From Umbilicaria muhlenbergii (Eukaryota > Ascomycota > Lecanoromycetes > Umbilicariales > Umbilicariaceae): a stretch of DNA of 64,000 bases. How positions within the stretch are numbered: position 1 is the first letter of the stretch; each line of letters opens with the position of its first letter. The stretch spans positions 1,956,580-2,020,579 of the forward strand of contig KK106984.1 in NCBI GenBank assembly GCA_000611775.1. The letters run 5' to 3'. The translations under genes and the position numbers were made by a program. Below are positions 29,036-52,082 of this stretch, in pieces. The notes under the pieces were generated by a model that was not told where the DNA came from, made no database searches, and was given only the letters and a program-made list of their open reading frames with translations.

Positions 29036-32000
29036 CTAGATGTAAAACATCGTATCCTTCACCTCATCATGCACGCCACTACTCCACCTCGCCGTCGACG
29101 GATTGAACCCCGCACTACTAGACGCCGCATCCGACCCATCCAGCACATCGCCGAGATAGCATCGAGCGCGCGTGCAGAGCAGATCGGCATAGTACGCCGG
29201 AGGACAGAGCGAGACGGCTTTGGTCGCGCGGCCAAAGAGGTAGCACAGGTTGTGCGTCTGTATCGACGTGTTAGTACTTCTCGTTTGCAGGATGGAAAAA
29301 GAGCGGCGGCATCACTTACCAACTGCTCCAACCCATCCGCCGTTAAGCCGATACGATCCTGAACGACGACATAGTGTGCCGATCTTGCCGTACCCTTGAT
29401 GCCGGTATGCGCCTGCAAGTAAAAGTCCCAGAAGCGCTCGCTCGTGACGCCGCGATCGACCACGGTGCCATTGACGCAGTTGCCAGACCTCTGGTCCGCA
29501 TCTTCCTTCTTGGTGGGGAAGAAACGAGTATGGTGACGCTTGCCGACGACGATGATTGAGATCTTAGGTTTCGCGCCTTTTGCTGGATAGACTCTACTGA
29601 CCGCGGCGTCGATGGCAGGAGATTCTTCTTGAAGCACGGTTTGGTATTGGCCTTCGGAGACGCCGTCGCGGTAGATGAGGATGTTCTGGGGCAGGGCCTG
29701 TTGGTTGTGTTTCTGGTACATCTTGAGCCGTTCCACGATCATGTCCTCCAGACCCGACACCATCTCCTTCCTGCTTTCTTGGCAGCGGACGCTGGCAGGC
29801 CATTGGCCGTACTTGTTGTCGATGCTGGCGACGACACCGGCGATACTTGGAGCGCCCTTTTGACTGCCAGGCGACGGATGCGTGACATCGATGCCCACGA
29901 GCATGGTCTTTGTGGTCCCTAGAATGCCCATCTTGTCTGGTGGCAACTGTTGGTTGATGCCGCCACGCTTCAGATTCCACTTCAAAGCAACATTCGCAAG
30001 GTACTGTGCCCGTTGACCTTTGTCGTTCTTATCGAGCTTGTCCGCCACAGAGCACACCGTGGTCAGGCCCCACTTAACGTCCCCAAGAAACTTGATGCAA
30101 GAGTAAATCTGCGCGGTCTTAACTGGGATGACGATGTAGACAAGTCGTGCCTTGGTATTAGTCCGGATGTTTTTGAACCATAGGTCAATGTCGCTCAGAT
30201 ACGTGTCAAGCCTGCCTTGGGTCAATTGCAATGGCGGGAGACCCGGAGAAGGGTTCGGAGGGTCCACCGTGAGACCAGTCTTTTGCATCATGTCCCTAAA
30301 CTCTCTCATCAATTCTACCAAAGGTGTATTGAGTGTAGTCCGTTTATTGAACTGAATCTCGAAAAAGGTCCAGTTGCTGATACGAGCACCAGTGAAGACC
30401 TTATTGCCAATCATGTTCCACGATCCGAATCTAGCGTTCAACGAGGAGCGGCCAGCGTAGAGTAGTTTTGGAGCATCCAGCACTCTTCCGTCGACTGTAA
30501 GCATCTTTGGGGTCATCTGAAGTCCGAAAACCGTCTACATGACTGTGTTAGTCAAGTACCTGCCACGACGTACAATACAGAAGCGGTTCGCCACTTACCG
30601 GCCCATCGGTATGGGTGGCTCCAATACCCATGACTCGAGCGCCTTCTCCAACAATCAACTCAGCATTCTCCGCCGGGGTACGGCATGCAACATTAACCAT
30701 CATCTCTGTCTGCCTCTGGGAAAGCTTCTTCTTAGCGACTTGGCCGGGAAGGACAATGCAAAGCTCCGGCGGTATCCAGGTCGGGAATTGTTCATTGCCT
30801 ACATTGACGACTGGTGCACCGGGGGTTTGGAGACGGATTTTGTACTCTGAATGGAGTTAGTGCCTTGGAAAAAGCTGAAACGCTAAAAGTGTACTCACTA
30901 AGGCGATAATACTCCTCGATCGTCACTTTGCGGTTTGCTTCCTCGTAGTGGAAAGAGATTTGGCCAGCTCCAGCCGCAGCATTAGGGGCTCGAGATATGC
31001 CAAAAATAACTTTCTTCTTCGGAACTCCCTTAGCGGTCTTCAGGTGAGTAAGCTGGACTTGGACGCCTTTTAGGAAGTAGTGCAAAGGCTGGTCCGGAGT
31101 ACGGGCTCCAAGGTCGTTGCGGAATTCGCGCATAAGATCGAGCAGCGGACCCTCGCGATAGAAGGATGCTGTGATGGAGTTCACGTTGATAAGCAGACGC
31201 AGCGTTGAGGCTCTGACACTAGTATAGTACCCTCGAAGAGCAACAAGTCCACCTCCTAGCTCACTAGGTTTCTGGCTCATCGGGAAGAATCGGTTAGCTC
31301 CTGGGAGCACCGCAACATCTGCTGCACTAGACGGCTTGCGAGCCATTGCGATGTTCAGGTGTTGCAAGAGCTCATCCTTGTCGTCATATCGAGCGTTACC
31401 ACTGGTGTCGGAGAGATATGTCAACAGTTCCTGTACAGACATAGCCTTCACATATTGTACACTGAACGTCAGGGGATCCTTTTCGGGATCCGGCCCTTGC
31501 TCTTCAGCTTCATAGTACGGAACCAACCAAGTGCCACGGTCCTCCGGGCCAAGGTTCAGCTTTTTGGCGGTGATCAGGGTCGAACGATTGTCAGTCGCCA
31601 CTGCATGACGTAGCCCGGCTAGGAATGGTGCATCTTGTATGAATAGCTCGAATGCACGCTTCCTCTTTCGGGCCGCACTAGGTTCTTTAACAACCTGGAC
31701 GGCGTATCGAAAGAGCTGAAAGTCCTTATTCGACAGCAGAACCTGGAAGTAGTTGGTCCGTAGAACCACCTTGTTACCCAAGGTACCGTAGGCAGGGCGA
31801 TTTGGCATCTGAGGTCCGTCGGAGAGGCTAAGCTTGCTTAGAGGTAGGCCTTTACGAGCAGCGACCAAAGCGTTTTCGGCCTTAGTCACATCAGCCGCCA
31901 CGGGTGGAATACCTTCTGCGGGACTATGACTGAGGTCAGCACGACGATTGGCGTCGTAGGAAAGCATGTCGTATCACCTGAAGATAACTGGTTGAGCAGC

Positions 32001-34300: not shown

Positions 34301-35110
34301 CTTGGTTCGGATTGATAGCGTGGGAGAGTGGCAGGTTTCTCGGATGTTTGTATCTTTAAACGTCTCACAAGCTTCTGTGGCGAGAAGTGAGGGGTTAGAT
34401 GATGTTTCGTGCTCCGCAGCGGTGAATGGCTACCTGCATATTAGAGGGCGGAAACGGCTACCGATGTCACACAGTCTGCCTGGAAGTACTCGTACCGGGG
34501 CCCGCTCCCTTTACCAAAACCAACCAAGGCCGCATGGTTGCCTAAAGATCCTCCGTGCACGCACCTCTTGTCCAACACAACATCCGGTTTCCTGGAGTCC
34601 TGTGAGTCACATCACTGCTGCTGTGGGTGCAGGGAGGATCCTCGCTGTAAATCGAAACAGTGTAACTGGTCTATCCCAACCCACAAAGTTCGCACCCGAT
34701 TTTCAATTGCTTAGCGCCGAAGGTGAGCGGTTACTGGCTTACCCTGAGTGCTGTAGGATAGACAAGGTAGACGAGATTGATTTTAATACGCCTTGGGATG
34801 GACCATAAATGGTACTACTGGCGGCGCTGGTGGCAGAAGCGTGCTGCAAGCTTGCAGGCACAGTGAAAAATGCGCTCTTCACATTCACAGAAGGGCAAAG
34901 AAGCTGAGAAAAGGGTCGCGCTTTGCTGAGCACATGTCACTTGTAAGGAGTTAAACATAAGGCAGTGTTGGAAATCATGACGACTAAAAATAAACTGCTA
35001 TGGAAAAGTGACTGAAAAAGTGACTATTATATATGCTCGACAACGCCGACAAAGAGGGAGCATTTTCCCTCCGCCACCTGCTCGCCGCATATGCCTGCCA
35101 AGCGGTGTGG
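34301..35110. other. Intergenic, no gene seen
   Basis: Tetraspanin promoter side and unassigned sequence; turns AT-richer after 34950 towards the repeat nest. Confidence 0.4.
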
Positions 35111-35225
35111 AGGGATTAGTCAGCCGCCTGCTTATTAGCTAGAATTTCTCCTCGTTAGAACAACACCTCGAGCATACCTAAGCAATCAAGCTGTTCAACC
35201 ATTATTGCCTGAAACCACCCTTTCA
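35111..35225. repeat. 114-bp repeat, intact copy
   Basis: Runs from AGGGATTAGTCAG to ACCACCCTTTCA. The second copy, about 600 bp away in the same orientation, is split by an insertion. Family unknown. Confidence 0.85.
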
Positions 35226-35333
35226 TTGGAGCCGAAGGCGGGGCTGTCTCTGTGTCATTCAGGGGCAGCCCAGGCCAGTCATCTTCAATCACCTCATCAA
35301 TTGGACGAATTCAACCATTCCTCCCACCTATCT

Positions 35334-35522
35334 CAAAGGACAGAGACATACCTTATCAATTAAACCTAAAAGGACTGAGGGACGGGTTCAAAGGACAGAA
35401 TCCAGCATAAGACTAAAAGGACTGAGCGTTGCGAATAAGACCTCAATGGACTGAGGCAATCCTGCTGGTATCGAAGGACCGAGAGAGCAGATGACACAAA
35501 AAATAGAAGGACTGAGGATTGT
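35334..35522. repeat. Irregular array of AAGGACTGAG-like words
   Basis: Seven copies of an AAGGACTGAG/AAGGACAGA-type word, spaced irregularly by about 20-35 bp. Confidence 0.65.
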
Positions 35523-36035
35523 GTATTGAATCAAGACCTTTGAAAAAGGCATACATCATTACAATGCGGAGGAAAGAAGGAATGGGTCAATCCCCTTGCT
35601 CACTACACTGTTATCGGGCCCTACACTACTAGCACTATCTCTCTACCCATTGCATTTGCTTTGACATCACCGTGGGCGGTGATCAAACAGGGTTGGGGAG
35701 CCTGTGAAGGGATTAGTCAGCCGCCTGCTTATTAGCTAGAATTTTTGCCTCAGCTAGCTCAGACCTCATTCCAAAGAGGCTTGCTAGCGCGCATCACCCT
35801 GGCAAAATCATGGAGCTAACCTGTTCAGATAGCTTTTCTCCATAGGGTCTGAGCGTGTTATTGATAATTACAGGTTGAAATCACTTCCAGACATGTAATT
35901 TAAGTTTAGTACAATGCTCAGATATTTCTGCTGTGTACATCTGAGAAATACTTGTTTTCTATTTAGTAATCAAAAACATAAACAAACTTCTCACACGTTG
36001 AGAACTTATCTTTTTACACTTATTTCTTGTCACTG

Positions 36036-36165
36036 CTCTGCTGCCTTTTCTGCTGTCTTTTCTGCTGTTTTCTCTGCTGTCTTTTCTGCTGTTTTCTCTG
36101 CTGTTTTTGCTGCTGTTTTCGCTGCTGTTTTTGCTGCTGTTTTCTCTGCTGTTTTCTGCGCGTCG
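36036..36165. repeat. CTGCTGTTTT-type low-complexity tract
   Basis: About ten degenerate copies of CTGCTGTYTTTT. It gives an open minus-strand frame of Lys/Gln/Arg repeats, which I treat as a by-product of the repeat. Confidence 0.75.
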
Positions 36166-36564
36166 CAAGTTTTGTGCATGTTATGCACAAAACTATGCAG
36201 AAGCTATGCAAAATCTCTACATTTTCATCACACAGAAGATTCAGTGCTAAGGATTTCTATATAACTCAGTCCAGAGGCTGCTATCAATGAGTCTAAATGG
36301 CGAAGCAATTTTGAGAGAGTGTGACTGTCTAGTTTTTGAGGTATAAGGTCACTGTTTTGAACTGAAAAGTACACTCTGTGAAGACTTAAGAAACTGTTCA
36401 ATAACAAGACACTTTTTTGAAATACTGACTACAGCATTAGATAAAGCGGCCATTATATAATTTATTACAGTTGTAACTTTGAATAACAAAATTGTGGTTG
36501 ATTTCATGTGACTGTTGTGCCTCCACGACTTGAGATTTTGACATGAAGCGTTTTCTACATACAG

Positions 36565-37381
36565 TTGGGAGGTTTAGCAACTTCTATGTAGTGTAGTGCT
36601 AGCCATATATAGAATAGCAACCAATGGGGTGTAATAACGAAAATTCAGTCTTGCTAGTACTACATAGCTCGAATGTAGGCTGCATTCGAGCTATGTAGTA
36701 CTAGGTAGGCTCAATCAGGCAATTCTGAATAGAATTTACTCCACTACGGAGTCATTCGGGAACCCAATTCAACGTCGGTTGAAGATCTCGATTAGTAGCT
36801 ATGGATATAGACTAGAATACACATGAATTGAACGATTTAGAGCAATATGACCACGAATTGGAGGCTTCTCAGTGTGAAAAGCCTCGCAGGAGGCGTTCCT
36901 GCACTGCCGCTGGCCACAAGAACCCTGTTTGCAGGCCAGCGTCTTTCTTCAGAGGCTATGAAGCGTCTGGAGAGAAGCTCCCAGGCCACTCAAGGCCTCC
37001 TCAGGGGTACGGTAGTACCGGGAGACTTACAATGAATGCAGGACGCCTGCTTCAACCCTCAAGCACTTCCTGGACCCCCCTCCGACCCATTCGCCGCTCT
37101 TTCAGCCACTCCGCCGCCTTCCTCTCAGGCTCCGCCGCCTTCCTCCCAGGCTCCGCTGAGCTCCGAGCAGTCTCTGAAGATCAGGCTTCCTTTCTCCAGC
37201 CAGCGAGTTGACCTGGGAGAGGAGGATTTGGACGAACTTATTGAAATCATATGACTCCAAAAAGGGGGGGTATTGGATATAGAGTTTGATAATACCATAT
37301 CAGGCTTAGGGCCGGAAAATCTATTATTCCGAGCCACTACGTACGTAGCACTACACTACACGGAACTGCTAAACCTCCCAA
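36565..37381. mobile_element. Nested TIR element (about 0.8 kb), possibly Tc1/mariner-like
   Basis: Inverted repeats of about 36-37 bp: 36565-36601 pairs with 37346-37381 (cores GGGAGGTTTAGCA and GTAGTGTAGTGCTA). TA dinucleotides flank both ends within a few bases (about 36560 and 37386), suggesting but not proving a TA target duplication. Inside, plus-strand frames at 36828-37254 code basic then Pro/Ser-rich sequence ending DLGEEDLDELIEII. It could be a broken transposase C-terminus, but no catalytic motif is seen. Confidence 0.5.
36654..36704. repeat. Perfect 22-bp inverted repeat
   Basis: Arms 36654-36675 and 36683-36704 (CTAGTACTACATAGCTCGAA and two more bases) with a 7-nt loop, no mismatch. 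Lies within the nested TIR element. Confidence 0.9.
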
Positions 37382-37909
37382 GTCATAATGAGTGTGTGTA
37401 CAGCTAAACGAAGCGTTTTCTGGCCTGTTTTTAGAATTACGCCCTCAGACCCTCCCCGGAAAACGCACACAGTCAGCGTTTGTAGCTAATCCCAAAGGGC
37501 ATTAGGGCCCGGCTAGTCCTAGCCGAGGCAGGGGGGGTTCTGAGTGACTGAGGCAATAGAATTTCTCCTCGTTAGAACAACACCTCGAGCATACCTAAGC
37601 AATCAAGCTGTTCAACCATTATTGCCTGAAACCACCCTTTCAGCGGCTAAGAGTTTCGCAGCGAAATATCAACAGGTAGCACAATAAATGGTTGAGTCAA
37701 CCTATAGCTATGGTGATGCTTGATGTATGTAATAATGCATACGGCTTGCAAATCCGAAGCGAACCATGCCGGGATAGGTAGGATATAGTCACTGATGTAT
37801 TACCGTTATTCAGATCATCGTTGCTCGTGTCTTCGCCGTTGTTTTGGTGTTTTGGTGGCGACTGAGAGAGGGCTAAGGGCTGGAGCTGGAGATTTGGAGT
37901 GAATAGGAT

Positions 37910-40071
37910 CTAATCGCTTAGATTCCCCTTGTCAAAATCATCGTCCTCTGTGTCTGAGTCGCTGTCTTGATAGCCTTGGAAAGGGTGCGGATGGTTGAGG
38001 TTTGGAGTGCTTCGCTGCATCGCCAAGGGTCGTCTCAGCTGCATTGCAATGCGCCTTCCGGTAAGGGCTGGCATATCCCCCACGTCTCGAGGCAAAACAA
38101 GCTGATCTTCCCTCGCTATAAAATTCTTGATATATCTGCTGCGGCCGGGACTGGTGAGAAGCAGCTTGAAGATAGCGTTGAGCGCCGGTGATTCCGTTAT
38201 CTCTCTCAATTTCTGAACTACAAAGCATGTGTCTTCCCTCCATTCCGATCTCTCGTACAGGGAAACACCATCAATGACACAGAATACAACTGTGTCGATG
38301 GGTATCTGATGCAGCAGCGTTCGGAATAGCCCACATAGGTGCCCTAGCTCGCACGCAAGGACTTGGTCTCGATAGCTTCGCGAGTCAATGAAACTGAGAT
38401 CGAATTTCTGGAAGGATAGAAGCTGAGAGATAAGACTTCGCATAAGGACCTTGGGCCCACTCAGAGGGTCGTGCCAGGATGTATGTAGGCCGCAGAAGAA
38501 CTGTACGCAGATGACTGGTTGAACATCCGCTAGACTTTGGACCAACGTGGCGCAGATGAGGGAAATGGGGGATGTACGACTAGTAGAAGCCGAAGGGCAG
38601 TTGCCATCCACAAGCAGCACCCGCGTTTCACCTGACTTCAGCCAGATCTCAAAGTTGAGATTACGCATCAGGGTATAAGCTGGACCCTGGGAACAAGGAT
38701 CGAGGGACATCCCTTGGCGGATCGTGAGCTGGCTGTCGTGGACCGCTCTTTCAGGATCTATGGCAAGTATGCCGACAAGCTGCTGCTGGGAGATCAACAG
38801 TTTGGGAGCGTACGCAAGAGCTCGTTCCTCTTCTAGCTGCTGAGAAAGTATCTGCTTTTCCCGTTCTGCCTTCCGCATATTCCCTGTATTGTTGTCAGCA
38901 GCAATGTGTACTAATAGACTTCCACAGTAACTTACAATTCGCGTTGCGCCATGTCTCTAGTAGATGCTCCACCATCGCTTTCCGGCCCTCATTTTGCATC
39001 TGGAGCTTGCTGATCTTGTGTTCTATCCTGGTTGAGTGCACGTAGTAAGATTCCTTAAGATCATTGACGTCACTTTGAATACTCCAAACAGAATCATTTG
39101 TATCTGCTGTAGTCTCTCGAGTTCTCACTATGTTCTGATCTCGTAAGAAGTCAACCCTTTGTTGTACAGATTGAAGATGAGTTTTCACATCCGCAATCTT
39201 CTCGTCGTGTGGCTTGTCGTACGAAGGACCGAGAAGTATGGCCTTGATTTGTTTCCCTTACTGACGTTAGTATCAGACGAAAACAGCTGATCGTTGATTT
39301 ACTCACATCCGCCTTTATCAACTAGCCACTGCATCATGCCTTCGATTGCTCTTAGGATTACGACATACAGGTCAATGATCAAGTCACTTAAGGTTTCATC
39401 TGAATGAAAATTCTCAAGATAACTTTCAACCTTAGCAATCGTCCTTGGTACTTCTCCTAGAGCTTCCAAAATCTGTTGTCTTTTTTCGCTCATTCGGCCC
39501 GCAGCCTGCGCATCTGTCATTACCAATATCTTTGTTTTCAAAAAGCGATTGTATAGTATACCGCAAAGACCAACTTCAGCCCGCCGCAAAGAACTGACGT
39601 GTACTCGCCGTCGGGAAGGAGCTCCAACCAAGGACTTGTATCAGCTGCATGGTCGCCAACAAACCTGAGAGCCTTGTGGCCGATTCCTTTCAAGCCCTTT
39701 GCTTTACTGTTATACTTTTGCTCCGCATCCTTTGCTTCCCGGATCACTTCGTCCCAACTGTGCTTGTCCCTGATATTGAAGTCCATTGTAGCCTTTTCCT
39801 TTGCATTCTTTCGATAGATCTCCATGACTTCGTAGAAGCGGTCAGTAGAAAGACGTAGACTGTTTTGAAAATATCAAACTCAAAAATAAGCTAATTGCGT
39901 ATGCCGGGGTGCCTCAGGATCAAGTAGAGATACGTACTTGTGATATTTTGTGGGCCTGAGCTCTGCGCGCTGATTCTCGAGCTGAGAAGAAGCGGCAAAG
40001 CTCTTGTGTAAGGATGGCGCATGCATGATTGCCCAATGTCTCGCTGTCTCAAGGCCCTCGTGTTGTGCCAT
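37910..40071 (-). CDS. DUF7708-domain STAND-like protein
   Basis: Five exons: 40071-39938, 39859-39562, 39505-39307, 39256-38936, 38883-37910, giving 641 aa. Residues about 60-220 match the fungal DUF7708-type N-terminal domain (SPWLELLPDGEYTSVLCGGLKLVF, EALGEVPRTIAKVESYLENF, LYVVILRAIEGMMQWL). A coiled-coil-like, Glu/Gln-rich middle follows. The C-terminal half resembles the NTPase-like part of such proteins, but the Walker A site is replaced by LLVDGNCPSASTSRT; a Walker B-like strand remains (VVFCVIDG). The acidic tail is DSDSDTEDDDFD. Proteins of this type are linked to fungal NLR/STAND systems; a role in self/non-self recognition is inference. Confidence 0.7.
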
Positions 40072-41522
40072 AGATGCGGTGCTTACAATGCTCACCTTGT
40101 TTGAGAGACAGTGAAAACGCCACTGAGATCAAGGCGCAATGACTAATTAACATGAGCTCAATGAGGGTACTGCACAGTTCTGACCTACACGTTCCTACTT
40201 TATTGTTACCAGGTATGGCGATGTGGTGGGGATTGGCCACAGAATCACAGAAACCAAATACAGTCTTCTCGGTTGAGAGAAAGGTGTGAAGAAGATCGCG
40301 GATGATATACAAGCTGAGTACGGAAAACGTTAACGTGCTTGGTGATAAATAGGCTCGTCGCAGCTCAAAACTCACCGTCATTTAGGCAGAGATAAATAAC
40401 AAATCACCGGACAGTGTAACAGGATTTATATGCTGCCATAGTCCTGAGATTACAAATGACGCAATGCGACAGCTGTTGAGACAGATTTGGTTTCCCCCAG
40501 TATCTTGAACTCGAAGGCATTTGGCCCAGCTTGATCGGAACTCAAGCTAATTTAGGAACAGCACTTTGTGATTACACCCACAAACTTGAAGGATGTCGAT
40601 GAGCGGACTTTATTCTGCCCTTGTTGCATTGCTGTCTTGCGGGTGGTTGAGGACGCTATTAAGTGGACTGATCATTAAAACCCGGAACAAAAGAAGCAGC
40701 TTCCCGCTCAGGATGCTGGATCCTTGCAGCTCTGTAACACACTCAGTGGTTACAGCCGCAATCAAGAAGTATGGAAGCGGTCTTTATTCTGCCTTGTTGC
40801 ATTGCTGTCTTGCGGGTGGTTGAGGACGCTGTTAAGTGGACTGATCACTAAAGTCTGGAATGGAAGAAGCAGCTTCGCGCCCAGGATACTTAAATATTGC
40901 AGCTGTGTAACACACCCAGCGTCTTGCAGCACGCCCTAGACTACGGAGGTACGCACATCAGAGATATGTTGCAGGAGCTGAAGAAGGTTTGACCAATAGT
41001 TCACCGTTGCCGGTTATAAATATCACAAGCCATGTGCATCGAGATATCTATGCGGCGAGGCTGCCGCCCACAGTAGATCTTTCATGTGCTATCCAACAGG
41101 ATCTGAGGCTCCCCATCCTGATCTGTCATTTATAAATAAATAGTTCGTTACTAAAGGATACTCGTCCGTGCCTCAGCGGGACCGCATGAACTCAAACTTT
41201 TTGGAGTAAATCCCATTTACGTCTCTATTTAATTTTATTCCACAAGCTCTTAGTTGCAACAGGAACTAGAAATCGCTGGCTCGATTTCTCTCAAAATCAG
41301 AAAGTGGCCCACTCTATAGGTAATTGTCCTTCAGTTTTTGAAGTAGAGGCTGGCTAACCGTATAGCTCGGATTGGAAATTCAACAGTGACTTTCAGCAAC
41401 TAAGGTTCCCTCACGCCTACTACCATTGGCTCTACCAGAGATACTGGCCTGGTTCTCGCAAGCCATTTGTGGCCAGCTTTATAACAGATCTTCTGAGCGT
41501 TCTGTAGAAGACAGGGCTAGCA
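40072..41522. other. Divergent intergenic region with a tandem duplication
   Basis: Promoter side of both the DUF7708 gene (minus) and the AAA+ gene (plus). Holds the 0.15-kb duplication listed separately; otherwise no feature seen. Confidence 0.5.
40601..40920. repeat. Two direct copies of a 147-bp segment
   Basis: Copy 1 about 40601-40748, copy 2 about 40774-40920, separated by about 25 bp and differing at roughly one position in eight to ten. A shared core is TTGCATTGCTGTCTTGCGGG. Function unknown. Confidence 0.75.
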
Positions 41523-43259
41523 ATGGCTGTGGACAACTCGCTTCGTGTAGGGCAAACCCCTGCCGGCCCCTTCACCGAGAGCTCTATGAGCAAAACTTCT
41601 CCTAAGGATGATATTTCACCAAGTTCGCGCACCGAAGGAAGCACCCCGCTGGAAGAGCTCATGTCTCAAGCAGAGCCTTCCTCCGAGAATGACACTTCCG
41701 AACAACACTCATCTAACGGATCTCTGGATGAGAAGAGCAAAGCCGCTGCTCACGATCAAGGTCATGACACAAGTGGAGATGAACCTAGATCCGATGACGG
41801 TGGCCAGATGAGCAAAGACAAGGAAGAGAAAGATTCTGAGACAGTGGAGAGAAAAGCAGAAGAGATCTCGGAACGGATTATGAAATACGGCCACTACCTT
41901 CAAATGATGGGGGAACAAATAGTACAGTGCGAAAAGGAGATCCAAAATAAGTCGTTGAAGCAGAACGACGGCGAGAAGTTGACGGCCACGAAAGATAAGA
42001 ATGCGAAACGACTCCCGGCTATTCCTAAGGTGGGTCGAGTAACCTGGACAGATTTCAAGAACAGAACCGCTGCAGACACGCGATATCCTGCCATAGAAGT
42101 CCTGATTGGAGAAGCAAGGTTCTATTATCAGCGCCGTAAGGAAAAGAAGCCAAGGTATAGTAGAACAACGTACGAGTACGAGGTACAAGAGGATGCAAAA
42201 GAAGAGACATTGCCTTCACCGAGGCTCGTATCCATACCTTATAAAGAAGTTCCAGAACGTGTTCGAATCAATTCCATACCGGTTATACTTGTTCTTTCCG
42301 ACATCACCTCTGAGAATTGGGCCACTGTTCCCACCGTAATGGTACGGCCTTTCAAGTTTCTGAAACACTTTGAGACGGAAATTCGTCAGGCTCTAAAAAA
42401 GCTAGAATGGAAATGGGACTGTGTCGAGAAGACTAAGGAGAACGACTCGCAAAGCCAGCTCTCTGAGTCAAACGGAGAGAAGAGTGGTTCAATGGCAAGC
42501 GAAGATGCAAAGCAGCCCAGCGTGTTTGTCGATACTGGAGATCATGAACTGGACAAGCTCAAAGAAACCAAGAAGCATCCGGAACAAGGTAAGTTTGACG
42601 AGACGATGATGAACGACTCAAAGGAGACAGAGATCATCAGTGAAGCTGGTGATCTCAAGTCACCAGATAGAATTTACTCAAAGAAGGAAGGCAAGGTCGA
42701 ACCAACAGCAGAAGAGCTTATGGATAGCTTTGAAGCCTTGAGGGACATGCGCTGCCTGGTACAGTTCATCGATACGTCCTTGAAGCCCCAGTGGCAGTAT
42801 TTTGACAATGCCAAGTATCGCAGGATTCAGTTCGCGGACCTGTGGCACATCTTCAAACCAGGAGATGATATTTTTGCGCCGTTGGGTTCTCAAACTGAAA
42901 CAGGATCTGTCACGGTTCCTCAACAAGAACAAGCAACGGGACCCGGATCTCTAGGACCAAGAAAAGGCCACAAGAGATCTCAAAAGGTTTGGAGGGTTGT
43001 AAGCATCACAGGTGGGCGGCCATATCTTAGTCCTGAAGACGATAAATCCGTCGACACAGCTCCTAAACACAAGCAAAATTCTTTCTGGATTGGATGCTAT
43101 TATATCGATTACGATGGCGAAAGATTTGGTCCTGTACAAAAGATATTCAAGATCAAACCGTTTCAAGGAGAGAAAGATATATGTTCCCTTGAGGTTTACC
43201 CGATGAAATTCGCAAAGGACGCTATCGAAGTCAGGAACCGGCTGAGAACAAGAGGGTTG
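41523..43259 (+). pseudogene. AAA+ ATPase with DUF7025-like domain, 5' part (gene split by LTR element)
   Basis: First 579 residues of a protein that belongs with the AAA+ module at 49980-52082. Residues 1-120 are acidic, Ser/Glu-rich and probably disordered, followed by a helical stretch (EEISERIMKYGHYLQMMGEQI). From about 330 to the break is a region typical of fungal DUF7025/AAA proteins (ELMDSFEALRDMRCLVQFID, IQFADLWHIFKPGDDI, FWIGCYYIDYDGERFGPV). The frame runs into the LTR at 43260 and stops within it after five codons. The host frame is otherwise uninterrupted, so the disruption looks recent. Confidence 0.8.
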
Positions 43260-43411
43260 TGTTATAAAGTCGTGTGAAAAGGATGGTGTTGCTCAGAGCT
43301 CCTAGGAAGCCACCTAAATAGTACCTAAGTGGGGCATTACGCTAGAATGCCACTAAGCCTAGTTGAGCAATAACTGACTACATAGGGTAGGCGTGTGAGT
43401 GCGCCGTAACA
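43260..43411 (-). repeat. LTR (3' LTR of the element)
   Basis: 152 bp; differs from the other LTR at one position that I can see. Confidence 0.9.
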
Positions 43412-46400
43412 GTGCCCCTCAATAATAAGACAGCGCCCCGCGTCTTCCCAGTCAGGGCCTTCTCCTCATGCCTTGTTTGTAGTCCTTGATAAGTTCAGGC
43501 GCGTTGGCGAGGTCTCTTGTAGTGCATCATTGGTCATGCTCAGGTCCATACCCTACCCACTGGGTGAGGTACTGCGTGGAGAAACCACGGCCTTTTTGAA
43601 TCACGCGCTTGTTTAGCAAGCGCTCAATTTCATGCTCTTCTTCGCCGTCAACTTCAACGGCAGGTGAGTGAGTGGGTCAGGGTCTCTCAAACAGGTCTTC
43701 AGATGATGGTGGTGCTGATTTGAGCATGATGACAGTGAAGACTGGATGAATCTTTCAATTGCGGGGTATATTGAGCTCATAGGTCAGTCTCTCAACTCAG
43801 CAGATTACCTTGAATGAGCTGATGAATTGTTGAGTGAGTTTCAGGTTCTTCTTCATGGCTGATAGTATGTAGCCTCAGTGTAACCTTAGATTTGCATAGT
43901 CTTCAACTCTCAGGAACATCACAGTGTGCTTTCTGTTGTAATGCTGCTTTGCCTGCATATTGATGAAGTTGATGGTGTCTCTTGAGTTAATTTGATAAGT
44001 GGTTTCACCCTGAGTGAAGGCTTCAGTACCTGGTTTAAGGGTCACAACATGATCAATCAGTTCAGTGACCTTCCTATCATAAAGGATTTCATTCAGTGAT
44101 TGGCCTGTAGAGCTTGATGTTGAGTTATTAAGGACTGCCTGCATCCTCAGTAAGATCATGAGCCAATCAGCAGGCTTTTCAAGGCCTGTGATGTAATGTT
44201 GAAGGGTTATTTCAAACATTTGGTTCATCCTCTCTGATTGATTGTCAGTTTGTGGATGGTAGGTGGTACTGTATAATAATTCAACGCTCTTCTCCTTGAA
44301 TATGATCATTCAGATTTGACTAATGAATTTCCTGTCCCGGTCTGATATGATGGCCTTCAGTAAGCCTCAGTCAGTGAGGTTCAAGTGTTTTAGTAGTAGG
44401 TGAGCTCATTGTTCTGCTGTATGTGTTGTCTTTCCTGATATCAGCGCTATCCGCTTGCTGAATTTGTCAGTTACACTCATGACTGAGTCAAAGCAGTTTG
44501 AGGGTGGTGACTGAGGAAGTGCTACAACAAAGTCAATGATTATGATATGATGCAGTGACGCTGATGTAGCGATCAGCTGTAATGATTCATAGGGACTATG
44601 CTGTGGGCTAGTCATGATCTGACAGTCTGAGCAGTGCCGTATGAATTCTCAGAGGGTGATATAAAGCTTCTGAATATATAGTGATTCAGTGATTCATTCA
44701 TAGGTTCTATGGAAGCCTGAGTGTTCAATTTCATCATGAGTCAATCATAGGACATCCTTTATCAGACTGTTGTGATCTGAGATGCAGAGTCTCTGAACAC
44801 CTTCTGAATCAACATGATAGAGTAGGCCTGTTTCATTCAATTCAAATGATAAAACAGCCTGGTCAGCCTCATTGAGGTGATCATTTGATTCAAGCATCTG
44901 TTGAACCTTACTTCAGGACTTGTCTGCGGTATAATCAGTGAGCAAGCAGGCCTTGAAGGTTTCACTCATCTCAATTAAAGTTGCAGCGTAGATGTATGCC
45001 TCATCAAAGAAAGTGTCAAGAATCTCATTCTTCAAGAGGCAATCATGATTGAACTGTTGACTCTTCAGTCTTGACAAGGCATCTGAGACATAGTTCATTC
45101 AGCCTTCCTTGTGACATACTTCAATATTGAACTGTTGAATGTATTCAGAGGCTCAGATTAGTTGTTTGTTCTGATGATCACTTGATGTTGCTGAGAGGTT
45201 TGTCTGCTTGATTAGGCTGATGAATGCATCATGATCAGTGTAGATGATTACCTGCTGTAGTGAGGATTCTATTAGATGCCTGATTTTCATAATTGTTCAT
45301 ATCAGGCCTGTGACCTCAAGCTCAGTTGATCAATAGTTCTTTTCAACGCTGTTGATGACTCAGCTTAAAAAGAGGATTGATTGAATCTGACTTTTCTGCA
45401 GTTTCACTGTGCTGTCATCCTTCACATGATAGACCATAGAGCTGATACTCAATTGAGAGGCATCAAGGTTCATGAACATTGATCAGGTATGATTGTAATG
45501 AGTCAGCATGATTGAGTGAGTGAATAATGACTGTAGTTGATGAAATGACTTTAGTTCTGCTGATGTAGGAGTGAGGATATTAGTCTTGACTGACTCATGT
45601 TTCCTGACTCAACCTGATGAGGAGACTCCTTTTAGAAGGAGTGTCTTTCATAACTGAAGTGAAGTTGACACTTGAGCATAAAAGGGTATGTATTGCCTCA
45701 GATAACTGATCATATCAAGGTATATTTTCAACTGCTTCAGTGACTTTGGAAATTTCAACTCAGAGATGGCTTGCAATTTCTCTGCTGTGGTAGATAAGCT
45801 GAAAGTGTTCACCTTCTGATCAAGAAGTTGAACTGACAGGTAGTCAATGAAAGATTTCATTGACTTTAAAATGATGTTGCGTTCATAGAGCGTTCAGAAA
45901 ATCACATTCAGGTGATCAACATGCTTTAATAATGACCTTGAGTAAATCACAATGTCATCCACGTAGGCCTTTGAATAGTCTTGATGAGGTCACAAGATTT
46001 GATTGATCATTCACTGAACATAGGAAGGACTGTTGCGGTAACTCATAACAGTGACATTGAACATTTCCTGGCCTCAGTGATTAATGACAGTCAGCTGATG
46101 ATGATGCTCAGTCTTGACACGTCACTGATAGAAGAAAGAAGAGCAGTTCACTGTTGATATCATGATTGCATCATGAACTGCTGTGATAACATCTGACTGT
46201 AGCAGCATGAGGTATATGTCAGAGACTGTTATTCAGTTTAAAGACCTGATATCAACAACTACTTGACCTTTTCAGGAGCCGTCAGACATCATTCTTTAAA
46301 CAACAAAGCATGAATAGTTAAACGGGGTAGGCTGATCAGATCATTCAAGCTTTTCCTGCTCTTAAAACTTATTAAATTCCTTGTCTACCTCATCTTTGTC

Positions 46401-49400
46401 TGCTTTACTCAGAGGGTAAACCTTTGTCTTGCATGTGTACTTTGATTGCCAGTCATTGATGAGTGATATAAGCATTCAATTAGACTCTGAGATGTTCACA
46501 ATATTGTCATGATCCTCTCACAACTTAGAGTAAGATTGAACTATCTTGAAGAGGTGCTGAACTGCTTCAGAATTTGTAGCACTGTATATCATAACACTGT
46601 TATTTAGTGAAGTTACTGACTTTGACTCAACAGTCTCAATTGCACTTGTTATCAGTGTGATGATTACACTTGCAGCAGCTAGCAGTGCTCCTGCTGTTGT
46701 GATGACCCTGATCAATCATTTGGCTCAGGAACCTTGGTTTTTCAGTTTGACTGAGATTTCAGTTAATGATAAGTCACTGACTTCAGCATGGAAGCACCCT
46801 TCTTCATTGTACTTCATGATTGAATCAAGTTGATCATTTCATTGAATTGTGATTGTTTCCTCTGTGTTGTTTCAAATCATTATGTCAGACATGAAGCAGT
46901 CAATGACATGAGTAAAGATACTTATGCCCTCAAGGTTGTGCTCTGGCTCAAACAAGAGGTCTCAATCATTGAGCAGATCAGCAGAATTGCCTTGTATCTG
47001 TACTGATATTAACTGAGTTGAAAATGAAGCTATTGAGGCCTCTGCTAAACTGATCACTGAGACTTGTGTTCTTTGATTTGATCATGATGAAACACTGAGG
47101 TTGATCTCAAGCCTCTCACAGGAGTGTATGACTGTGACTCAGCAGGAAATGTTGATGACTATGCTCTCTGATCTCATTATATTCACTCCTATAAGCAATT
47201 TAGCTTTGAGGTTGTTGATCAAGTGAACTTCATGAGTAATTTTCATGATTTGACTGTCCTTTTCAGGTATGTAAAGGTTGATGACAGCAAACTCCTCACA
47301 CTTGTGTATAATGAAGCCTATGCCTCAGACTGATATAGAGCAGGTCATTCTTTTAATTGATATGACTGAGAGTTCCTTCTTTAGGTACTCTTGATTCATC
47401 AGTGACATTGTGCAGCCTGTATTGAGGCAGACTGCTGTATTGCCTTGAGCAGGGTGTAACTTTGTCATTATAATGACATAATGCCATCCTTGAAAGCTGT
47501 AGCCGTCATTTTTTTGATCACTGACATATGACTTGATGACTTCAACTGAACTGGCTTTGTTGTTCAGTACAGTGACTTCAAATGAGGTGTTGTTGATGCT
47601 CAGTATGACAGTGATGTAACCTCCTTCTTTAAGAAGCCTCTTGCTTGATTGTATCCTGAAACAACCTTGACAGACATGTTTGTGTAAAAGGTTGTTCAAA
47701 AGAAAACTGTCCTGGCAGTTTCAACATTGTATGTTCTTTATTGATGAGACATAATTGGTGTCAACATCTTCCTCAGTGAGTCAGTCATCTTGTATATTTC
47801 TATTTTCCTCCTCATCATAGTCTTCATTGGCGTACATCCTTTCCTGCCAATAGGTGTTGTTCACATTGTAGTAGTTGTCTATGTAGGCTTGATACGCATG
47901 CCACTCATCAGGCTCATAGGGCCCGTCATCACTGATGAGTGTAACATGATAGGCTTTGATAGGCATAGGAGGGGGTCAAGAATCATTCATTCAATTTGAA
48001 TACAACTGCCTTGTGTTTACCGCTGCTGATGTAAAGCCTTGCATTGATGGTCAATAGCCTGGCCTGAAAGGAGGATTTTGATTTTGACTTGAGCTCTGCT
48101 GTTCACGGTTAAACCACAGTCTTGCTTGATCAGACTGCTGATTATTTGAAGCAGGTGAATGAAAGAAATTACTACTGTTTTCAGTAGAAGGAAAGAAATT
48201 TGCACTGAAAGGTGAGCAGGTAATGAAAGGTGCATTAGCAGAAAAGTTTGAGAAAAATGATCAATTTAAATTGAATCAATTGAACTGACTTGAGTACTGA
48301 TTAAAATCCTGCTTGCCTTGATATCTATTGCCTGCTTGACGTTCTCACTCATGCATCATGATGTAACCGTGGTTTCATCTGTAAATTTTAAATCATGCAT
48401 GCTTCCTTGAGTTCAGCTGCTCAATAAACTGAGCTACTGTTGTCTGAAGAGTTGGCTCTGTAAGGGTGAGTTGAAGCTCACTATTCAGATGTTCATAGAT
48501 TAGAAGAACTTGAGCATGATCAGTAATGATGATTCCTGCATTTCAATCATTGACGATTATGAATTGAACATATGAGGCAGGCTCATGATTCTTTCTTGCA
48601 TCATTCACTGTGTAGTGAGTGATCTCTAGCATGGTAAGTGACTTGTCAGAGGGATCTCAGAAGCGCTGTTTTAATGCCTTGCATCACTCCTCAACATCAT
48701 TGATATTCAGGCGTAGGCTGACTCACTGAATGTGTGAAAGCTCTTCAGTATACCACTTATCTGCCTGACTTAATAAACAGGCGTCAAGGTTTTGATGAAC
48801 TGTCACTGATTTCATCATGATTGCTTTGACTCATATTCAGTTTGTGAAGGAGAAGACATTCTGATATATCATATCTTGATCTTTGACAATGACGTCCTCA
48901 TTGCTGTTGAATTGAGGTTCAAAGTAGCTGATGTCTTTTGCTCTGAAGGTATTATGTTCATTTGTATCACCTCTGTCAGTCATACTTGACTCCTCTGTGA
49001 GGCCTTGCTGTCCTGATGATCCTACCAGGCCTTGCTGCTGATTGACTGATTGAGCAGCCAGGGTAGCAGCTACTGTTTAAGTGATAAGAGTGATGAGCTC
49101 ATTTCTTTGCTCTTCAGTGAAACCTCAGTTCAGCGGCTGATTTGCCTGGCCTGGCTGCTCTCTTCCCGTCATTGTTGAGAGTCGGTGAGGTGAGGGTGTT
49201 CAGGATAGTTCAGAATTGATTTGGTCAGACTCCTCAGGGGTTGATTGCTGATTTTTGAGTGAAGCGTTCTGAAGGTGAATTGTATCAGAAGCAGTTGAGC
49301 TGCTGTTATCAGAGCTTGCAGAGTGTTGAAAGGCTCTGTAAAATCAGTCAATGTTCAGCTGTAGCTTTGGTAGGTTTGTTGATCAGACTTCAGGTCAATA

Positions 49401-49822
49401 AGGGGCCTCTTTTGACTTAAACCTCATTCAATGAGACGGAGGGAGGTGTTGCCCTGAGTTAGCTAGGCTTGTGAAATACTGAGCAAGAGCTTGCTTTCTT
49501 GAGGCCTCAATTTCTTCAGCGTAGGGATGGCTGGACTCTAGAAAATTCTGAATTTGATGAGCAAGGGCAAGAGTCGGCTCATCTAGTGGTTCTGAAGCCT
49601 GACGGCTTGAGGAGGATGACGTCAGCTTGGGAGGCAAGAGACCTCATACGCCTGGTCGTAGATGTATTGGGTGACGTAGGCTATGACGTCGTGGTTCGTC
49701 CAAGGAAGGATGAGTGGCAGTGAAAAGCCTGATGGCAGCAAAAGCCTGGTGGCGGCGGAAGCCTGGTTGTCGATAGCAATCTTTGGTGCTAATCAACGAG
49801 ATCTACAAGGTGTTGCTACCAT

Positions 49823-49974
49823 TGTTATAAAGTCGTGTGAAAAGGATGGTGTTGCTCAGAGCTCCTAGGAAGCCACCTAAATAGTACCTAAGTGGGGCAT
49901 TACGCTAGAATGCCACTAAGCCTAGTTGGGCAATAACTGACTACATAGGGTAGGCGTGTGAGTGCGCCGTAACA
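49823..49974 (-). repeat. LTR (5' LTR of the element)
   Basis: 152 bp, pair of the LTR at 43260-43411. Confidence 0.9.
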
Positions 49975-49979
49975 GGTTG

Positions 49980-52082
49980 ATGTTCTGTGAATTCACATCC
50001 CCTCAACATAGATACTACACCGGACTTAGTCTGACCCACCAACCTATCGGAGATCCTATCTTGGATGAGGATGATACGATGATACATCCGGAGAATATAG
50101 TTAGTCAGGTCGTTGTTGATATGAGTGCGGCAGTTCAAGCCAATCCGCATTGGTCCCCAGGGTTCCACGTTGCCATGCCGCTGTCGACACAGCCGAGAGA
50201 ATTAGAGGAGAGTTATCCTGTAAAGATCTGGAAAGATAAGGAGCGTAAGACATTGCAGTCTGAACTCGAGGAGATGATATATGAGGATTCCAAGATAGAC
50301 ATCAAGCTTACAAACGACTTCAAAGACCGCGAACCTGCCCTCAGAGATGACTGGGCGGAGACTTCTGCTGCTGCTTCTCAGGCGTGCGAGATTGATTCGA
50401 TTCTGCTACCAACCCGCGTCTTTGCCTATTCATTTAGGAACCGCAAGTTTGGTACGTCATTCAATGGCTTCTGCTCTGAAATAAACAACGCGCATTGAAC
50501 TTTTGCTTACCATCCTTTCCAGTGCCACTGATGATCAACAATCTCCGGCCAACACAGCCTCAAAAGGACGGCTTTAATAGCTTGAAACTTCCGCCAGGTT
50601 ATAAGAGGACCGTACAAGCACTGGTGCACAGTCACTTTAGCAACAAGCTAGCAAATCAGACTCCTCCAGACGACGACTATGACTTTGATCTTGTTCGTGG
50701 GAAAGGTGAGGATCTTCGACACACTTGTCTCTATCTGTGACTTACATAAGTGTTAGGGAAAGGTCTTGTTATCCTCCTACATGGAGCTCCTGGGGTGGGA
50801 AAAACGTCTACAGCTGGTGAGCAGCCAAGGTAGCTTCAACCTGACTTGGTCATCTTTGCTTATCAGCATGGCAGAGTGCGTGGCAGAGTCACATGGCAAG
50901 CCGCTGTTTCCCATCACGTGCGGTAAGTATTTAGCTGGCGAGCGTGGGAGACTTAAACTCATAGGATGCCATAGGCGATCTAGGGCTAGTTGCAGAGGAG
51001 GTTGAAGCAAAGCTTGCCAAGATCTTTCATCTAGCAGAACAATGGGACTGTGTGCTCCTCCTCGACGAAGCGGATATCTTTCTGGCAGAAAGGACCAAAA
51101 CTGATCTGAAGCGTAACAGCCTCGTATCTGGTGGGTAGAATCTTCTGAAGTATCTGCGATGATACTAATAAACGTAGTCTTCCTTCGTGTATTAGAATAC
51201 TACACAGGAATTTTGTTCCTCACGACTAACAGGGTAGGTGCATTTGATTCAGCTTTCAAATCACGGATCCACATGCACCTCTACTATCCGCCGCTACGAA
51301 AGAAACAGACCCTCAGCATATGGAAGATGAACCTCGAGCGGACCCAGGAGAGGAAGAAGACGTTGATAGCAGATGAGAAGGAGATAATGGACTATGCGCT
51401 CCGTCATTTCCGCAGCACATCGCCTCAGAAGGCCAACTGGAACGGACGACAAATCCGCAACGCTTTCCAAACCGCCACCGCGCTCGCAGAGTACGACCGC
51501 TTCGTCAGCCAGACCGGCCCGGCCCGGCTCGACACAAAATACTTCGACCTCGTAGCCAAAGCCTCCCTCGAATTCGACCTATACATGGCCGCCACCCGTG
51601 TCGAAAATGACGCCGAACGCGCCTTGAACAACCAGGAGCGATACGACGAATTCAAACTCTCGTCCCAGTACCGTGGCCACGAACAGTCGGGCCCGATCAA
51701 TTCTCGTTTCCCGCCGCAAGCGCCACCGCAGTATCCGCCCGGCCCGTATCAGCAAAGCTGGCAGCAGGAACCCGGCGCGGTGATGCGCGAGCCGCAACGC
51801 TATGCGCAGCCGATGACCCCAACGATGATCAAAGGCCGGGCATATGCGCAAACCCAGCATCTAGCGGCGGAGTCCGCGTACCCCCACACGCCGCCGGCGA
51901 GTGCGGTGCCGGCGCCGCAATCGATGTACCCCCCTTCAGTGAATGAGGCCGTGTTGTTCCGCGAGGAGCCCGTCAGCACCCACGCTGGCGGTGGATGGCA
52001 GCGGCCGCAGCAACACTACAACGAGCCCGGGCAGGCCGGGATGAGCCAGGGTACTGGGTCTGGGGATGATGATTATGAGTAG
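49980..52082 (+). pseudogene. AAA+ ATPase with DUF7025-like domain, 3' part
   Basis: Six exons: 49980-50451, 50523-50705, 50757-50816, 50875-50922, 50975-51130, 51178-52082; with the 5' part the gene would code about 1186 aa. Walker A GAPGVGKT, with intron 50817-50874 falling ten bases after the GKT codons, Walker B CVLLLDEAD, sensor-1-like GILFLTTN, then FKSRIHMHLYYPP and a lid region (NWNGRQIRNAFQTATALAEYDR). The C-terminal 130 residues are Pro/Gln/Tyr-rich and low-complexity. Fungal AAA proteins of this class have no settled function; nucleotide-driven remodelling is the family expectation. Reading frame resumes immediately after the second GGTTG. This half has no obvious start or promoter of its own, so the gene is probably dead in this strain. 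Confidence 0.82.

Follow-up and report, generated by a model that had tools for sequence, protein, structure and literature searches.

A gypsy-like retrotransposon of Umbilicaria muhlenbergii, probably hypermutated in place with its ends spared, and a candidate variant of repeat-induced point mutation directed at C-S-A

Repeat-induced point mutation (RIP) is a premeiotic process of crosses that requires duplicated DNA of more than a minimum length and has CpA as its usual preferred target, with variants reported; Clutterbuck 2011 is said to have surveyed mutation contexts. The comparison made here is with a stretch of 64,000 nucleotides of Umbilicaria muhlenbergii (contig KK106984.1, positions 1,956,580 to 2,020,579; ‘the window’), part of a 34.8-Mb genome in 7 contigs, which carries a Ty3/gypsy-like retrotransposon with almost identical long terminal repeats (LTRs) and an interior dense with C-to-T changes. 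As in RIP of Neurospora crassa and Pezizomycotina, C-to-T changes fall on both strands and on repeats, sparing other DNA, a candidate RID-like gene is present and stops are created in coding frames; the difference is that RIP usually has A at +1 (CpA to TpA), whereas here A is the least favoured base at +1 and the most favoured at +2. In Microbotryum, RIP-like hypermutation also has a trinucleotide context and also affects gypsy elements, with TCG becoming TTG (PMC5381629). For basidiomycetes, a Masc2-type enzyme is given (PMC4352252). In the ascomycetes Aspergillus nidulans (MATE) and Tuber melanosporum, as here, mutation of repeats falls heavily on CpG (PMC2621366, PMC4352252), but their second target is CpA and not, as here, CpC, with the +2 base about as important as +1. 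The Podospora LTR-retrotransposon crapaud is likewise under RIP, the LTRs of full copies being hit and most solo LTRs not (PMC10787394); unlike those of crapaud, the LTRs here are spared where they adjoin unmutated DNA. A ten-genome study lists signatures at CpA, CpT and CpG but none at CpC (PMC4352252), and, according to a 2025 kingdom-wide fungal survey, RIP-like defences share the CpA preference (PMC12543289).

The target is read most directly from a ‘clean pair’, the near-unmutated segment 49550-49975 of the window set against a mutated copy, L059, that lies within a mutated island on contig 2. All 50 differences over 425 aligned bases are, as in RIP, C:G to T:A transitions, 37 being G-to-A and 13 C-to-T. 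(Strand-specific editing of the APOBEC type was rejected, both kinds of change being present.) Just beyond the pair, near 49506, there are three adjacent mismatches to L059, two of them non-transitions. Within it, CCA was mutated at 15 of 18 sites and CGA at 7 of 8, followed by CCG and CGG (2/5 each), CGT (6/16) and CCT (6/22), with CCC and CGC unchanged (0/7 each); C-S-A, where S is C or G, stands apart from all other contexts at p=1.5e-12. By dinucleotide the counts are CCN 23/52, CGN 15/36, CTN 8/65 and CAN 4/60, of which CAC, CAG and CAT together give 1/41. The Microbotryum step is present as its opposite strand, in CGA, the C of TCG itself being mutated at 1 of 8 sites, and CCA is a main target as well.

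The preference recurs in three pairwise data sets, scored as discordant C/T over C/C plus C/T at sites with identical neighbours: the window against 8 loci representing 6 copies of the gypsy family, 28 pairs of 8 copies of a high-copy family, and 116 pairs from 21 further loci. Pairs within these sets share copies, and pairs other than the clean one also contain transversions from older divergence. For CAA, CCA, CGA and CTA respectively, the fractions are 0.44, 0.89, 1.00 (9/9) and 0.72 in the gypsy family, 0.35, 0.74, 0.88 and 0.60 in the high-copy family, and 0.35, 0.84, 0.97 and 0.55 in the further pairs; for CAC, CAG and CAT they are 0.20, 0.07 and 0.23, then 0.04, 0.02 and 0.09, then 0.15, 0.06 and 0.17. 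CpA is the lowest dinucleotide in all three sets (626/2454, 758/5817 and 4477/23822, in the same order), counts which are diluted by CpA derived from CpG, a dilution of which the clean pair is free, and CpT is the second lowest (780/2150, 856/4179 and 6486/22037). CCG and CGG, at few sites, are often unmutated (0/6 and 0/5; 3/21 and 0/18; 0/58 and 55/114). For the high-copy family, a regression over 11,352 sites yields +1 coefficients of 1.66 for G, 0.20 for C, -0.34 for T and -1.52 for A, and +2 coefficients of 1.86 for A, 0.04 for T, -0.96 for C and -0.94 for G, with smaller effects at +3 to +5 and little effect of upstream bases. Five left-end comparisons, noisier at 236-416 aligned bases and with some transversions, favour A at +2 in every case, and in those with L003, L004 and L011 CpA is not the lowest dinucleotide. 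The target rule is C-(G>C>T)-A, with CpA least favoured in the three pairwise data sets. In a control pair, the gene L069 and its duplicate L070, the rule is weak if present (CGA 8/20, CCA 6/25, CAA 4/21).

The high-copy repeat (L008:1-1313; L071-L078; L080-L099), which shows the same mutation rule, has 13-bp tandem units at one end; its long matches are 85-90% identical over about 1.3 kb, and 40 of 392 first-look candidates were scored. One copy is inserted in the gypsy-family member on contig 1, at the equivalent of window position 43606.

On balance we lean, with no great assurance, to the view that this fungus runs a variant of RIP with inverted specificity, in which C-S-A is targeted and the classic CpA sites are disfavoured. 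The CAN count of the clean pair speaks against calling it RIP, CpA preference being the usual mark of that process; the direction of change on both strands and the mutation of repeats (six long copies and the second family) in a window otherwise spared speak for it. The kind of process is already known, and the rule is an unusual variant that is negative by standard RIP indices. No published description of a C-S-A or CpNpA rule was found in the literature searched, which included PMC11969663, PMC13297926 and PMC5555474, subscription papers lying mostly outside it. TAA is a named enriched k-mer in Neurospora tester crosses (PMC12543289), and the +2 preference for A may be common to both, with only the +1 preference shifted.

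In composition the interior stands well apart from the rest of the window. An earlier note, made from the letters alone, had described it as rich in TCA and TGA and poor in CpG, which is borne out: between 43701 and 49400, TCA plus TGA amount to 108 per kb, vs 34 per kb in the rest of the window and a maximum of 44.0 per kb in 90 overlapping 5.7-kb stretches outside the element, and observed/expected CpG is 0.15 vs 0.88. The enrichment stands, but TCA and TGA are reverse complements, and their crowding on both strands is a single fact. Trinucleotides in deficit are CCA, CCC, CCG, TCC, TCG and all four CGN, while TCA is up 3.1-fold; TpA is not enriched (0.55 in the interior vs 0.75 elsewhere in the window). 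The standard RIP indices (product 0.54, substrate 1.71, composite -1.17) are the opposite of a RIP signature, for which the thresholds are product >1.15 and substrate <=0.75 (PMC7882544), and classic RIP by these indices was rejected; the view taken earlier that CpA-to-TpA RIP does not fit was right. RIPCAL, per its authors, was not designed for trinucleotide bias (PMC2621366).

The element looks like an ordinary gypsy-like insertion: LTRs that start with TG and end with CA, a 5-bp target duplication, a reverse transcriptase-like motif before integrase-like ones, and a single frame. The span 43412-49822 is exactly the interior between the LTRs. YVDD (near 45954), an HHCC-like motif (near 44622-44738) and YHPQT (near 44247) occur in order in one minus-strand frame; we take the first to be reverse transcriptase-like and the others to mark the integrase side. 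Pfam searches of 10 short, heavily mutated stop-to-stop pieces (55-144 aa), a set without the YVDD stretch, returned no retrotransposon domain. Over 2,136 codons that frame has 67 stops, 63 of them TGA, while the remaining two minus frames have 147 and 185, including 59 and 40 TAA/TAG. The evenness of the stop pattern suggests that there is no frameshift over the 6.4 kb, and of the strong decay once read into the interior, the breaks are real but general decay is not evident. Because TGA, TGG and CGA together make up 35 per 1000 interior codons, near the 42 per 1000 for TGG plus CGA in six host open reading frames, the stops are explained by former TGG and CGA codons; within 43701-49610, TGA accounts for 58 of the 66 codons of these three kinds.

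That frame bears on a slow alternative, in which repeats are methylated at cytosine and then undergo ordinary deamination, with the ends unmethylated. It would explain why changes are C-to-T only, and the strong loss of CpG and the presence of a DIM-2-like gene are in its favour, but the clean pair has CpC and CpG mutated to a similar extent, and 58 TGA of 66 codons beside one LTR change in 152 positions needs a very strong local contrast of rate; we consider it improbable. That the composition is simply native to the element, with TGA tolerated, has the least to recommend it, and we give it hardly any credence. The six long copies examined (L020-L024 and L059) do share the composition of the element's interior, and TGA is the sole frequent stop in the frame. 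However, the second repeat family has the same composition and rule, the ends of the very same element are ordinary, and the differences between the spared end and L059 all run in one direction.

For the ends, a CSA index was taken as unmutated over unmutated plus mutated CSA sites; it is 0.66 for the rest of the window. In 150-bp steps from the left edge of the element it runs 0.50, 0.43, 0.28 and then 0.05-0.28, and from the right edge 0.60, 0.74, 0.42 and then 0.00-0.20, with change points between spared end and interior near 43716 and 49622. That the LTRs and neighbouring bases look ordinary, as noted earlier, is confirmed by unmutated-type sites of 38/68 in the ends vs 56/684 in the interior (p=3e-20). 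Other copies adjoining unmutated DNA also keep sites in their outer 150 bp (L008 6/10, L011 4/9, L012 6/9, L013 3/10), L012 and L013 doing so over nearly saturated interiors. In L011, L012 and L013 the index has dropped to 0.06-0.15 by the second step, so the window element is spared more deeply than they are. Copies within mutated islands keep almost nothing (L010 1/10, L016 0/7, L017 0/7). Pooled, the outer-150-bp index is 30/58 at six unmutated-flank edges vs 1/24 at three island LTRs (p=3e-5), a test in which the intermediate L014 is left out, L015 and L018 are not classed and the uniqueness of the other flanks is assumed.

Low index values elsewhere in the window are found at 34501-41200 (0.51-0.52 in 5.7-kb stretches starting 34501-35501, the lowest outside the element), with GC also low (0.41-0.45) and observed/expected CpG of 0.53-0.54 at 35001-37000; this is perhaps an older, weakly mutated remnant.

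The LTRs of a pair are, at insertion, copies of one template. Those of the window element have, as reported before, 152 bp and one visible difference, with A at 43366 in the left LTR (TGA context) and G in the right (TGG). Of 10 other LTR loci that span this site (L009, one of the 10, is the right LTR itself), 8 have G; A is confined to L010 and L016, which lie within mutated islands. Since the left LTR alone has this TGG-to-TGA change of a favoured context, the process would seem to have acted on this very insertion. The insertion itself is young relative to the gene it interrupts, given that the reading frame of that gene is open across the reconstructed empty site, to residue 752, and that the upstream part has itself as its sole match in the genome. 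Identity of the LTRs by gene conversion between old ones, as reported for LTRs in yeast (PMC10787394), is very unlikely: the inner margins, which occur once per element, are spared too, the host frame is open and the target duplication has been preserved intact.

From these sequence comparisons, RIP-like hypermutation in place after a recent insertion, weak at the repeat edge, is probably what occurred. The age mismatch proposed between young LTRs and an old interior is probably not real and is not needed, as the damage is C-to-T without sign of frameshift and a fast mutator can produce it in a young insertion. The context-dependent process sparing the ends that was offered as one of two explanations is the one supported, by the clean pair, pairwise contexts, regression and edge indices. 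The other, that an already hypermutated copy was moved in trans, perhaps with template switching that put sound LTRs and margins around an older interior, is unlikely without being negligible. Identical LTRs follow directly from it, and the kinship of the right end, which proved to be mosaic, lends it something. Against L059 there are 0/352 transversions in the right end and 40/1,101 in the interior (p=2e-5; 13/717 with p=0.007 when the variable stretch 49101-49500 is removed), and the left end has 0 transversions in 347 bases against L002 (near 43478 and 43487, in the left margin, the window has TG and L002 CA). But the genome search found no interior match above 84% among the best candidates scored (79% over 2.0 kb; 82% over 1.6 kb, end included; 84% over 430 bp), though the source may be lost or outside those candidates; the left LTR, unlike the right, has a mutation of the same type, a sign of activity after insertion; the lineages of L011, L012 and L013 also show a spared LTR beside an unmutated flank; and the mosaic could be L059 itself. 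L059 and window 49508-49974 have a recent common lineage without transversions, their interiors differing, and the kinship to L059 changes near 49508, about 115 bp from the border in composition.

Several observations weigh against mutation in place or against sparing as a property of repeat edges. The difference in kinship between end and interior, which suggests recombination between element lineages, implies that sequences of separate ancestry have been joined in the window element or in L059; in the former case the interior could have been mutated ahead of the joining, and this signal lowers the confidence in mutation in place and raises that in the chimera or trans reading. Against L060 the trend is reversed (66/2196 transversions in the interior, 18/319 in the end). 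The LTR difference is one event. Among the edges, L014 is intermediate and the first 150 bp of the L012 flank look mutated (3/15). Copy age is confounded with flank and could explain part of the difference between copies, although not the contrast within a single copy. For the high-copy family, a test of end-sparing on 28 copies gave no significant result (rho=0.29, p=0.14), nor did the flank-class comparison (p=0.91); post hoc, of five copies with a flank index >=0.24, three retain 6 tail CpG and the other two 1 and 0, and L091, with a flank index of 0.17, yet keeps 4. Borders of transposable elements in Cladonia are sharp (PMC12542154), and one Stagonospora repeat has slightly more RIP at its ends (PMC2621366). 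A parallel on the other side is that the distal part of a repeat can escape RIP in Neurospora testers (PMC4858203).

If hypermutation in place is correct, the element would have inserted recently into a DUF7025/AAA-ATPase gene, after which a RIP-like process would have converted C to T on both strands of repeated DNA, turning CGA and TGG codons into TGA so that the frame filled with TGA stops. Timing may be around the sexual cycle, by analogy with Neurospora, and the ends may be spared through incomplete homology sensing or spreading at the repeat edge. Candidate agents are RID-like and/or DIM-2-like methyltransferases, for which a PF00145 profile search of the genome gave four places. One, L067 (C6:814627), combines the methylase domain with DUF7893 and with a BAH match that falls slightly short of the cut-off; its best solved relatives, 9bap and 9baq, are cytosine methyltransferases of 1,456 and 1,244 residues, and we take it, on this resemblance, as DIM-2-like. 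The PF00145 match of L068 (C4:3522938) contains PPCQFFSPAHT, presumably the RID signature, from which the RID-like label is taken; one stop inside the match is perhaps an intron. L069 (C5:2349218) is a further cytosine-methyltransferase-like gene with a partial PF00145 match, and L070 (C1:6527376) is its damaged duplicate; across 947 alignment columns the two are 79% identical and differ both ways. As a clean reference this pair was unhelpful, differences being about equal in both directions.

Coordinates of the insertion and its surroundings are collected below. Both flanking halves appear, from frame and domain order, to be one host gene, with an AAA lid domain of its 3′ part in 51159-52082. 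About 11 kb from the insertion, at 29062-31967 on the minus strand, there is an Argonaute gene (Piwi, ArgoN and ArgoL1 domains). No match to 5.8S rRNA was found in the assembly, from which the rDNA array may be absent, or the search may have missed it.

Features of the insertion and of the putative host gene (window positions)
Feature	Position	Strand	Basis
Left target-site duplication GGTTG	43255..43259	.	same 5-mer at both outer edges
Left LTR (3′ LTR of minus-strand element), 152 bp, spared	43260..43411	-	5/10 sites unmutated in outer 150-bp bin
Inner margin by left LTR, mostly spared, polypurine-tract side	43412..43715	-	change point near 43716; index 0.43, 0.28
Hypermutated interior, Ty3/gypsy-like element	43716..49622	-	composition, change points, single frame with TGA stops
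Inner margin by right LTR, spared, primer-binding-site side	49623..49822	-	change point; no transversion vs L059
Right LTR (5′ LTR of minus-strand element), 152 bp, spared	49823..49974	-	LTR alignment
Right target-site duplication GGTTG	49975..49979	.	same 5-mer at both outer edges
Putative interrupted host gene, 5′ part, DUF7025 domain	41523..43254	+	Pfam PF22942, E=1.6e-25
Putative interrupted host gene, 3′ part, resumes at GGTTG copy	49975..52082	+	Pfam PF23232, E=2.2e-17

What makes the element notable is its mutator, RIP-like in kind, with an unusual target and weak at the ends, and it is because of that weakness that LTR age and interior damage look contradictory; under such a process, setting near-identical LTRs against interior damage gives no valid contrast of age. 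In practical terms, DNA full of C-to-T changes can have a strongly negative RIP composite index and, if the reading is true, surveys that use TpA/ApT and CpA+TpG indices would have scored such genomes as free of RIP. A genome that combines RID-like and DIM-2-like genes with repeats mutated at CCA and CGA, and far less at CAC, CAG and CAT, is a testable exception to the survey conclusion of a shared CpA preference, and opens the question of which part of the enzyme sets the sequence context. If true, RID/DIM-2-class enzymes are able to change their specificity in the first base 3′ of the target while the second becomes decisive.

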